Positions 3,225 to 57,011 of a stretch of DNA of 64,000 nt are shown here, piece after piece (the stretch's first letter is position 1; each line of letters opens with the position of its first letter). Location of the stretch: assembly GCA_003647275.1 (NCBI GenBank), contig QMMN01000001.1, forward strand, positions 62,001 to 126,000, written 5' to 3'. A model generated the notes under the pieces. The model was not told where the DNA came from and searched no databases. It was given only the letters and a program-made list of their open reading frames with translations. The position numbers and the translations under genes are program-made. The DNA comes from Deltaproteobacteria bacterium (GTDB lineage: Bacteria > Desulfobacterota > Desulfobacteria > Desulfobacterales > C00003060).

Positions 3225-3902
3225 ATGATTGTAGCCAAGAGAAAACCTTTTAATGAAATCAAAGAACTTATTTCCGGCTCAAAGAAGATCCTGATCCTTG
3301 GATGCGGCACCTGTGTTGCTGTCTGCCTGGCCGGAGGTGAGAAGGAGGTGGCCATCCTCGCCTCGCAGTTGAAGATGGCCCTTGGCCTTGTGAACGAGGA
3401 TGTCGAGATTGATGAACTCACGATTGAGCGGCAATGTGACCGCGAATTCATAGAGGAAATCAGCACCAAAGTGAATGTGGATGATTATGACCTCATCTTA
3501 TCCACGGCCTGCGGTGCCGGGGTTCAACTGTTGAGCGATGTATTTGACCACAAGGTGGTGGTGCCTGCCCTGAACACGACCTTTATCGGCGTGGCCGAGG
3601 GCCCTGGTATGTGGACCGAGCGATGCCGTTCCTGCAGTGACTGTGTGCTGGCTGACACAGGGGGCATCTGCCCGGTGACTATCTGCGCAAAGGGACTGGT
3701 CAACGGCCCCTGCGGAGGGACAAGACACGGCAAGTGTGAAATAGACCCTGAAAAGGACTGTGCTTGGACGCTCATTTACAACCGGTTGAAAAAGCTTGGC
3801 AGGCTGAATAGGATGGAGCAGGCCCTTCCCCCTAAGAGATACAGCGTACAGCAATACCCGGCTAAGATCGTCCATGAGGCCTACAGGAGGAGATACGAAT
3901 AA
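3225..3902 (+). CDS. metV: MetV, MTHFR-associated iron-sulfur/zinc protein
   Basis: MetV (methylenetetrahydrofolate reductase C-terminal domain family) is the obligate partner of the short MetF of acetogens and sulfate reducers, and links the flavin reductase to an iron-sulfur electron donor. The 225-residue product has LGCGTCVAVC near residue 26 and STACGAGVQ near residue 92. It ends with the cysteine-rich CRSCSDC...GICPVTIC...NGPCGGTRHGKC region typical of the family. The stop is one base from the metF start and the shared GGAGG lies inside the metV end, so the two are coupled. With the preceding HdrA and MvhD this matches the MetVF-Hdr-Mvh arrangement described from Moorella. The family is secure; the complex is inferred. 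Confidence 0.93.
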   Translation: MIVAKRKPFNEIKELISGSKKILILGCGTCVAVCLAGGEKEVAILASQLKMALGLVNEDVEIDELTIERQCDREFIEEISTKVNVDDYDLILSTACGAGVQLLSDVFDHKVVVPALNTTFIGVAEGPGMWTERCRSCSDCVLADTGGICPVTICAKGLVNGPCGGTRHGKCEIDPEKDCAWTLIYNRLKKLGRLNRMEQALPPKRYSVQQYPAKIVHEAYRRRYE

Positions 3903-3903
3903 T

Positions 3904-4776
3904 ATGGCAAGATCCTTTGAAGAGGCACTGACGTCAGGCAAGTTTTTGATAGCCACAAGCCTTGATACCCCCAAGGGAATGGACCTTGAAGACTTGGCTC
4001 GGCTGATCAAAGAACTAAAAGATGTGGTAGATGCGCTTGGGGTGTCTGACAACCCTCATGCCATGATGTGCATGAGCCCATGGGCGGTATGTCGGCTGGC
4101 CCTTGAACAGGGTGTTGAACCCATCATGCATGTGGCCTGCCGCGACAGGAATCGGCTTGCCCTCCAGTCCGATCTTCTGGCAGCGGCCTCCATAGGCATC
4201 AAGAACATCCTGTGCGTGAGCGGCGACCATGTTAAATTTGGCGATCATATAGACGCCAAGCCTGTGCATGATATCGACTCAGTACACCTCCTGACAGTAG
4301 CCAAGGCACTTGCAGAGGGAAAGGATATGGCAGGAAATCCCCTGAAAGGTTCCCCGGCCCTTTTCCTTGGGGCAACAGCCAATCCTGAGGCCGATCCCTT
4401 AGAGCCTCAGTTGATAAAAGTAGACAAGAAGATAAAGGCAGGCGCCTCATTCCTTGTGACCCATCCGGTCTTTAACATAGAGAACCTGAAAAGATTCATG
4501 AATCACGTAAAGCAAAGCAAGGTCAAGGTGATAGCCGGGATTCGGCTGCTTGTGCCTGAAGAGGCGTCCAAATATAAAGACGGAAGCTATCCTGGGCTGC
4601 TTGTGCCTGATGATCTCATAGAAGAGATCAAAGGGGCCGACACAGGAAAATGCATGAAGCTCGCAGGCGATCTTATTAAAGAGATAAAGTCTGCCAACCT
4701 CTGTGACGGTATCCATATTACAGCACCAGGACATGAAGAGAAGATCCCTGATATCATGAAGGCAGGCGGGTTGTAG
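3904..4776 (+). CDS. metF: Methylenetetrahydrofolate reductase (short MetF)
   Basis: Reduces methylene-THF to methyl-THF (or the reverse in oxidative metabolism) in the methyl branch of the Wood-Ljungdahl pathway, and serves methionine synthesis. The 290-residue product is the short FAD-only TIM-barrel form. Visible features are the N-terminal ATSLDTPKG, VACRDRNR near residue 77 (the conserved RDxN), a flavin-region ILCVSGDH near 102, and LFLGATANP near 160. I chose ATG 3904, two bases after the metV stop and 13 bases after AGGAGG, over an in-frame ATG at 3874 that lies inside metV. It lacks the C-terminal regulatory domain of eukaryotic MTHFR. Electrons probably come through MetV and the Hdr/MvhD proteins. 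Confidence 0.94.
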   Translation: MARSFEEALTSGKFLIATSLDTPKGMDLEDLARLIKELKDVVDALGVSDNPHAMMCMSPWAVCRLALEQGVEPIMHVACRDRNRLALQSDLLAAASIGIKNILCVSGDHVKFGDHIDAKPVHDIDSVHLLTVAKALAEGKDMAGNPLKGSPALFLGATANPEADPLEPQLIKVDKKIKAGASFLVTHPVFNIENLKRFMNHVKQSKVKVIAGIRLLVPEEASKYKDGSYPGLLVPDDLIEEIKGADTGKCMKLAGDLIKEIKSANLCDGIHITAPGHEEKIPDIMKAGGL

Positions 4777-4797
4777 CCTCACAAGAAAACAATTCAC

Positions 4798-4902
4798 GGA
4801 CAAGGAACATCGCTTCTCTTTGGCATCTAATGCCTTTGACAGGTGCGGCGTTATGGTCTGTGGAAATGGCTGGATGCCTACGTTCAGCAATATTCCTTGT
4901 CC
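4798..4902 (+). repeat. Structured intergenic repeat, copy 1 (three nested stems)
   Basis: The outer arms GGACAAGGAA (4798-4807) and TTCCTTGTCC (4893-4902) pair fully, followed by a C·A mismatch and two more pairs. Inside are GGCATC (4822-4827) with GATGCC (4873-4878) and ACAG (4839-4842) with CTGT (4858-4861). The core GGAAATGGCTGGA is shared with a second copy at 56861-56982, whose stems have different bases but pair at the same places. It sits between metF and the QmoA-like gene. Confidence 0.75.
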
Positions 4903-4988
4903 TGCATGGTGAGCTATTACGAATTCCCATTTTGAAGGGGCGAAACCGCACGATACAAAATCATGGAGCGATCTTATCGGAGGGTTTA

Positions 4989-46064: not shown

Positions 46065-46124
46065 AAAAACATATCGTCTTTTTCCCTTGACAACGCAGCC
46101 GTCGTCTTTTACGCTGATTTTGCA

Positions 46125-46297
46125 CGAGAGTTGAGGTGCGGTTCTCATCAGTAGCTGCAAGACAGGGAGACGGGCCCCGTATCTTGTGGTGAAAGGGGGA
46201 ACCGCCGAAGTCTGCTTTTGCCCGGTCACAAAAGCGGGCTGGGCCTGTGGATAAAATCCCCAGGACTGTCACGGCTTTTCCGTGGAGCGCTCTCTCG
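46125..46297 (+). promoter_or_regulatory. Lysine riboswitch (L box)
   Basis: The core reads GAGAGTTGAGGTGCGG, CATCAGTAGCTGCAAGA, GTGAAAGGGGGAACCGCC, GAAGTC, GCGGGCTGGG and GGACTGTCACGG, matching lysine-aptamer conserved segments in order. Stem P1 pairs CGAGAG (46125-46130) with CTCTCG (46292-46297). A terminator follows at 46307-46337. It should shut off the DapA-like gene when lysine is abundant. Confidence 0.92.
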
Positions 46298-46306
46298 GTA
46301 GGGATA

Positions 46307-56117: not shown

Positions 56118-56305
56118 CTGCAACGCTACGCGGGGGTGTTCCGATTGTTTCTTGTACTAGACGTATTTGCACCATTTGAGGTGCCCCGACAGGGGCTGAT
56201 GATTGGGCCTGATTTTCCCCTCTCAAAAAATCAGGCCAAGCTCAAGAATCTTTTCTGCGTTCTCTGTGTGCTCAAGCGACTGCAGGGAGCGGGCGAGAGA
56301 ATCCT

Positions 56306-56860
56306 ATGATCGGGAACGAGGGCATGAACATTGTCCTGATTGGATACAGGGGTACTGGCAAGACGACCGTGGGGATGGCCCTTGCCAAAAGACTTGGGAA
56401 GGCCTTTTGTGACACGGATGACTACATCGAAAGAAAAGCCAAAAGGCCGATTAGCGATATGGTCTCAACAGAGGGTTGGGCCTTTTTTCGGGCAAAGGAA
56501 AAGGAGGCGATCCGCGAGGTATCGTCACGTAAGGATTGCGTGATTGCTGCAGGCGGGGGTGCCATCTTGGACGATGAAAACGTGGAGAATTTCAAGAAAA
56601 ATGGAATCGTCGTTTTACTCGAGGCCACCACTCAGACCATCCATGAACGAATGCAAGGCGATAAAAGGACCGACCAGCAGAGACCAAGCCTGACCGGAAA
56701 AGACCCATACGAGGAAATAGAAGAAGTTTTGGAATTTAGGAGGCCTTTTTATCAAAGGGCCATGGATTTTTCTGTAGATACGACATCTAAGAGCATTGAC
56801 CAAGTCCTTGATGAGATCGTCCGGAAACTTGAACGTAAGTCACAGGGGCACTTGTCGTAG
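56306..56860 (+). CDS. aroK: Shikimate kinase
   Basis: A 184-residue kinase that phosphorylates shikimate at the 3-hydroxyl. It has Walker A GYRGTGKTTVG near residue 13, DTDDYIERKAKRPISDM with the shikimate-binding Asp, the FFRAKEKEAIRE region, AAGGGAILDDENV and the lid R in RPSLTGKDPYEE. Start ATG 56306; an ATG at 56324 is an alternative. It follows a 280-base spacer with a hairpin after aroA, so it may have separate initiation. Confidence 0.93.
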   Translation: MIGNEGMNIVLIGYRGTGKTTVGMALAKRLGKAFCDTDDYIERKAKRPISDMVSTEGWAFFRAKEKEAIREVSSRKDCVIAAGGGAILDDENVENFKKNGIVVLLEATTQTIHERMQGDKRTDQQRPSLTGKDPYEEIEEVLEFRRPFYQRAMDFSVDTTSKSIDQVLDEIVRKLERKSQGHLS

Positions 56861-56982
56861 TTCAGCATTCGGGGTACGAAAAATTGCTTCTCTTCAGCCT
56901 CCAATGTCTTTACCAGGTATGCCGTTATCCTTGGTGGAAATGGCTGGAGGCCTATGTTCACCGATTTCTCGTACCCCCTGAA
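56861..56982 (+). repeat. Structured intergenic repeat, copy 2 (three nested stems)
   Basis: The outer arms GGGGTACGA (56871-56879) and TCGTACCCC (56969-56977) pair fully, then an A·C mismatch and AAAT/ATTT. Further out, TTCAG (56861-56865) pairs with CTGAA (56978-56982). Inside are GCCTCC (56897-56902) with GGAGGC (56946-56951) and ACCA (56912-56915) with TGGT (56932-56935). The core GGAAATGGCTGGA is shared with 4798-4902. It lies between aroK and aroC. Confidence 0.75.
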
Positions 56983-57011
56983 CAGTTACGCTCGAACAGT
57001 ATGGAGGTTAA

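Follow-up and report, generated by a model that had tools for sequence, protein, structure and literature searches.

Two copies of a structured repeat lie in gaps between metabolic genes of the window, the 64,000-nucleotide stretch of Desulfobacterota DNA analysed here, and they raise the question of whether such repeats control the genes beside them or arrived there as insertions. The original prediction described a folding element with different bases but preserved pairing in its two copies, flanked by metF-like, aroK and aroC genes. The copies, which are homologous to each other, and these neighbours are where it placed them, but the predicted extents were too short, as each element with its terminal inverted repeats (TIRs) reaches beyond the 109-position core (Table 1). 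Both copies fold better than every shuffled version, with z-scores of -4.4 and -5.2 on the plus strand and -7.1 and -4.2 on the minus strand. Mismatches of the predicted A.C kind are present in both outer stems, but at differing pairs (C.A at pairs 13 and 16 in copy 1, A.C at pair 11 in copy 2); pair 13 is the weakest inner position of that stem, unpaired in 33 of 75 cells across the family.

Table 1 Window coordinates of the two element copies, their parts and adjoining genes
Feature	Position	Strand	Location or sequence	Basis or remark
Complete MITE, copy 1 (135 bp)	4786..4920	+	metF-like / qmoA/hdrA-like gap	Ends from family TIR comparison; empty site in G007
Left TIR, copy 1, decayed	4786..4796	+	AAAACAATTCA	Family form GTAAYNGTTCA
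Right TIR, copy 1	4910..4920	+	TGAGCTATTAC	
Structured core, copy 1 (109 positions)	4796..4904	+		Covariance model R2, 101.8 bits
Outer stem 5' arm, copy 1	4797..4814	+		Structure counted on alignment, placed by covariance model
Outer stem 3' arm, copy 1	4886..4903	+		Structure counted on alignment, placed by covariance model
Conserved core motif, copy 1	4862..4874	+	GGAAATGGCTGGA	
Complete MITE, copy 2 (136 bp)	56854..56989	+	aroK/aroC gap	TIRs; compact empty junction in G005, G008, G020, G015
Left TIR, copy 2	56854..56864	+	GTCGTAGTTCA	Includes aroK stop codon
Right TIR, copy 2	56979..56989	+	TGAACAGTTAC	
Structured core, copy 2 (109 positions)	56870..56978	+		Covariance model R2, 104.6 bits
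Outer stem 5' arm, copy 2	56871..56888	+		Structure counted on alignment, placed by covariance model
Outer stem 3' arm, copy 2	56960..56977	+		Structure counted on alignment, placed by covariance model
aroK (shikimate kinase)	56306..56860	+	Last codons and stop at or in copy 2	ORF list; product by sequence recognition and original prediction
metF-like gene	3874..4776	+	Ends 9 bp upstream of copy 1	ORF list; product by sequence recognition and original prediction

The repeat is neither confined to the window nor unpaired in its other copies. A search of the window's own genome (G000, a draft assembly; the other genome labels denote congeners) with a 13-base core, followed by inspection of the flanks, returned about 15 true copies, and a covariance model built from 14 of these found 22 there, with 90% of stem cells paired across the aligned copies. 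The same model detects the element in 10 of 22 congeneric genomes, with 1 to more than 20 copies each (about 16 or more in four, 1–5 in the others). Within the order, 12 of 389 sampled genomes carry it (nine of the window's genus and three of one other family), and covariance searches of 395 genomes sampled across the phylum yielded none besides the window's own. Matches to the exact core pattern among GTDB genomes came only from related Desulfobacterales/Deltaproteobacteria metagenome-assembled genomes, and searches of plasmids and phages with the peptide of the element gave no match. The window also holds a lysine riboswitch (46123–46299, 102 bits with Rfam models) and, just upstream of aroK (56254–56313), a distinct dispersed repeat of 50–60 bp that has many copies in G005 and G020 and one more in the window's genome (C106).

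Features of a transposon account for this dispersal. The unit is short (about 136 bp), occurs in multiple copies and is bounded by the TIRs GTAAYNGTTCA and TGAACNGTTAC; it has no transposase gene and encodes short peptides only. Its target duplication is exactly 8 bp, with 58% identity between left and right 8-mers compared with 30% after shuffling (z = 11.3), and other duplication lengths are at or near chance (next best 6 bp, z = 3.6). The window copies have no intact duplication (0 of 8 and 2 of 8 matches): both insertions are old and their visible duplications are lost. Empty sites exist at both loci (Table 1). In congeners, the aroK–aroC junction is compact and free of the element, and at the metF-like locus G007 reads CCTCACAGGAATTTCC, compared with CCTCACAAGGAATTCCC when the two window flanks are joined. 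Relative to neighbour genes that are themselves co-oriented, the copies lie in either orientation (20 versus 13). Because it has TIRs, 8-bp duplications, empty sites, both orientations and copies inside genes, the repeat is a mobile element rather than a gene-linked regulator, and it is certainly a MITE, a non-autonomous DNA transposon. The same features speak against the metabolic regulatory RNA that the original prediction implied, whereas its claim of maintained folding is borne out by numerous, covarying copies.

The ends point to a transposase family. IS66 elements have GTAA ends and produce 8-bp duplications (PMC11946415, PMC3281130), and the element resembles IS66 MITEs and IS66 insertion sequences in its GTAA-starting ends and 8-bp duplications (PMC11946415). 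Congener G014 contains a complete IS66 with the ends GTAACCGTTCACGG and an 8-bp duplication, AATAATTG, and both IS66 traits, ends starting with GTAA and an 8-bp duplication, are found with end types A and B (type B is described below). As the duplications and ends match IS66-type transposition and a congener carries an IS66, the element is, by its ends and duplications, an IS66-type MITE. Unlike IS66 insertion sequences, it lacks transposase genes, has a conserved hairpin core and has ends similar to those of the G014 IS66 over only about 11–14 bp, which is shorter than the usual 20–30 bp. The IS66 transposase (PF03050) was absent from G000, G001 and G007, draft assemblies in which repeats get lost.

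From these sequence features we infer that an IS66 TnpC mobilizes the element. Such a transposase would act on the GTAAY..GTTCA ends and duplicate 8 bp of target. An insertion in the open frame of the minus strand would add 48 residues to a protein, which may be tolerable, and in operons the element could also sit directly after a stop codon; in copy 2, the element itself supplies the aroK stop codon (56858–56860). The repeat family, its ends and target duplications, the sites left empty in congeners, the covariation and the in-frame insertions that orthologues lack are all observed directly. On this basis, we put at roughly 85% the probability that the two window copies are old insertions of an approximately 136-bp MITE moved in trans by an IS66-type transposase, whose in-frame insertion adds 48 residues and can be tolerated.

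The interior of this MITE is a long imperfect hairpin. Its outer stem is variable but covarying, whereas the inner stem is conserved and the two strands of the internal loop strongly so. In an alignment of 74 copies plus two reverse-strand matches, both sides of a pair had changed in 190 cells, compared with 54.8 +/- 5.4 after shuffling and 16–40 in sliding-partner controls, which agrees with the prediction that different bases keep pairing. Compensated changes occur at 16 of the 18 outer-stem pairs. The copies being numerous and covarying, the data support pairing in the nucleic acid that is maintained or regenerated. In five copies (L178 1001–1142, L179, L180, L181 and L202), a 33-bp insert in the apical loop lengthens the core from 109 to 142 bp; its length is a multiple of three, and in AddA it reads in frame as TCPLVPRSGRRVG.

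Regeneration could be a by-product of inverted-repeat correction, in which template switching at quasi-palindromes restores the arms of a palindromic MITE. The pairing arms are indeed inverted repeats, and the compensated double changes (186, compared with 28.5 expected if the sides were independent) are mostly full Watson–Crick swaps. However, correction should erase the unpaired internal-loop strands, yet these are, with GGAAATGGC, the most conserved parts (entropy of 0.36–0.50 versus 0.84–0.86 in the outer stem). Single mismatches are also strand-biased: A.C exceeds G.U by 98 to 44 on the strand of the original prediction (65 to 32 after near-duplicate removal, p = 0.001), where an A.C corresponds to a G.U on the minus strand, and the mutation bias at unpaired positions runs opposite to this minus-strand wobble excess. 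Inverted-repeat correction could therefore produce part of the covariation signal, leaving the conserved unpaired strands unexplained, and we regard it as an unlikely source of the covariation as a whole.

The strand bias also bears on which molecule folds. Of the 44 copies in which DNA folding energy decides between the strands, 36 favour the minus strand. A structure formed in host transcripts was considered and rejected, as wobble types split by transcription direction favour the minus strand either way. Given this excess under both host transcription orientations and the opposite mutation bias, it is mainly on the minus strand, and independently of host mRNA, that the fold matters or is regenerated. 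The hairpin might persist because the element can spread, or remain harmless, only if its minus strand folds, be it as single-stranded DNA or as RNA of the element itself.

With its 8-bp duplication, the 136-bp element occupies 144 bp, or exactly 48 codons, and its consensus minus frame, read from the terminal GTA, is open (VTVQGVRETAERRPPAISTEDNGIPGKGIGGRREAVSLTPNGELL). As this length is a whole number of codons and this frame has no stop, in-frame insertion can be tolerated. At least 12 copies lie in-frame inside genes with recognizable products, 10 of them in the open minus frame and two in a plus frame, and in-gene copies mostly encode VTVQGVRETAERRPPAISTEDNGIP.KGIGGRREAVSLTPN. MurU of G000 has two inserts and MurU-AmgK of G015 has one, at the linker; RecD2 and an asparagine-synthase-type protein have one each, UvrA has one between its halves, AddA has one between its helicase and nuclease domains, a LysM protein has one at the same site in G000 and G015, and TPR membrane proteins have three. 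Apparent amino-terminal insertions in NfeD-like (L041) and RlpA-like (L054) open reading frames were left out, as they lie ahead of the conserved domains.

The G000 MurU contains exactly two additional segments, one of 41 and the other of about 48 residues, both of which are lacking in the orthologues of all ten other congeners examined; the 41-residue segment stems from a copy that lost 24 bp internally and stayed in frame. The G015 MurU-AmgK site differs from the G000 sites and is uninterrupted in several congeners, with a related remnant in G005. Compared with solved relatives, one MurU insert and the RecD2 insert fall in gaps between aligned segments. Frame tolerance inside genes is well supported, and the proteins that carry inserts probably still work. 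For annotation, this shared 48-residue insert in UvrA, RecD2, AddA and MurU should be read as a transposon footprint and not a domain.

Some genes or regions were hit more than once. The MurU/AmgK gene received at least three independent insertions across two genomes (L151, L031/L046 and L246). Three insertions within about 7 kb (G000:C13 7468–14612), each in-frame in a different TPR membrane-protein gene, form a local hot spot. Three of the hit genes, uvrA, recD2 and addA (L043, L145 and L178), function in DNA repair or recombination, possibly by chance.

The repeated use of one frame suggests another reading, that the encoded peptide is itself the selected product and the element a transposable protein segment with its own function. 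The 10-of-12 preference for the open frame and the exact loss of 24 bp from a MurU copy are in its favour. However, third codon positions do not vary more than first and second positions, in genes or elsewhere; copies are mostly intergenic, often with stops; and the host proteins share no common function. One insertion shared at the same site (L037 and L143) has a dS of 0.24 in the element and 1.15 in flanking codons, a difference in which constraint and concerted evolution are inseparable, as all copies are about 83% identical. We consider selection for the peptide improbable, and, given that no codon-phase signal was detected, the reading frame seems to permit insertion rather than to be a product of the element.

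Still less probable is that the repeat is a cis-regulatory RNA, a riboswitch-like leader or operon element controlling the adjacent metabolic genes. Strong covariation, highly conserved internal loops and the placement of both window copies between co-oriented metabolic genes would suit this role. Against it, the neighbouring genes are unrelated, both orientations occur and no position is fixed with respect to genes of related function; the copies are bounded by transposon ends and target duplications, congeners with the same operon have empty sites, many copies lie within coding regions, and the wobble bias is towards the same strand in either direction of host transcription. As predicted, no known riboswitch fits: Rfam families gave no match at gathering scores, only chance-level microRNA and snoRNA matches (E of 0.23 or worse). 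The regulatory reading is largely refuted. A REP/BIME-type palindrome moved as single-stranded DNA by a RAYT (IS200/Y1) transposase would share the strand preference of the hairpin but can be dismissed, as such palindromes measure 20–40 bp rather than 136 bp and Y1/HUH elements are not known to make the 8-bp target duplications or the terminal inverted repeats seen here.

The core of the IS66-type MITE also lies inside other MITEs, which have at least three further kinds of end. Type B units of 204–222 bp, in G007, G014 and G017, have ends GTAACTTCTCAAAAAGTCCGGGTA and perfect 8-bp duplications in nine of nine copies. In G002, G005, G007 and G014, each genome has about 40–140 ends of this type, most of which do not enclose the core. 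Ends GTAACTTCTCAAAAAGT, counted 43–138 times per genome in these four, often form closely spaced inverted pairs, about 80–290 bp apart, indicating a very abundant MITE family with varied interiors. Two copies in G019/G015 have ends GTAACGTTCAAAAG, and those in G001 and some in G015 have ends TCAAGTTTCGCACCC with an apparent, weak 9-bp duplication (62% identity, n = 7). Because the same core occurs between TCAAGTTTCGCACCC ends, it is not tied to IS66, and several kinds of end around one core imply that the core is more widely shared than any single set of ends. Tentatively, and with the odds somewhat against it, the 109-bp core may be an independently selected nucleic-acid hairpin cassette in several unrelated non-autonomous transposons. 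Different transposase systems (GTAA with 8 bp; TCAAGTTTCGCACCC with an apparent 9 bp) would then have recruited it on two or more occasions because one-strand folding would raise transposon fitness, for example by aiding transposition or by making insertions in transcribed genes harmless. The common core under differing ends makes the role of a hairpin as a selected MITE accessory testable.

Among known systems, ERIC/RU-1, YPAL/RU-2, Correia/NEMIS and the Coxiella QMITE are lesser parallels: they too are short, many-copy hairpin MITEs, and some of their open frames are fused to genes (PMC2229807, PMC5896051). TA termini are listed for several of them, their duplications differ and no sequence relation to the present element was found; in-frame insertion in the middle of conserved enzymes is frequent here.

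The closest parallel is with Rickettsia palindromic elements (RPEs), which are hairpin-forming sequences of 105–150 bp with inverted-repeat ends that occur between genes and in-frame within unrelated protein genes, where they encode a recurring open-frame peptide (PMC2229807, PMC10969869). The present element matches them in hairpin size range, inverted-repeat ends, in-frame insertion into unrelated protein genes and a recurring peptide. It differs in lineage and sequence, and no RPE model was among the NCBIfam matches of the host proteins with complete match lists. The target duplication, listed as unknown for RPEs, and a likely transposase type (IS66) are visible here. The element thus behaves like an RPE in an unrelated lineage, and it is not an RPE by sequence or lineage. 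Hairpin transposons that often enter working enzymes in-frame are best known from the obligate intracellular Rickettsia, where they are usually explained by genome decay and weak selection. Their occurrence in free-living Desulfobacterota of the sulfate-reducer type indicates that this behaviour is not peculiar to reduced genomes, and readable duplications with a likely transposase family make it possible to test here what moves the element.
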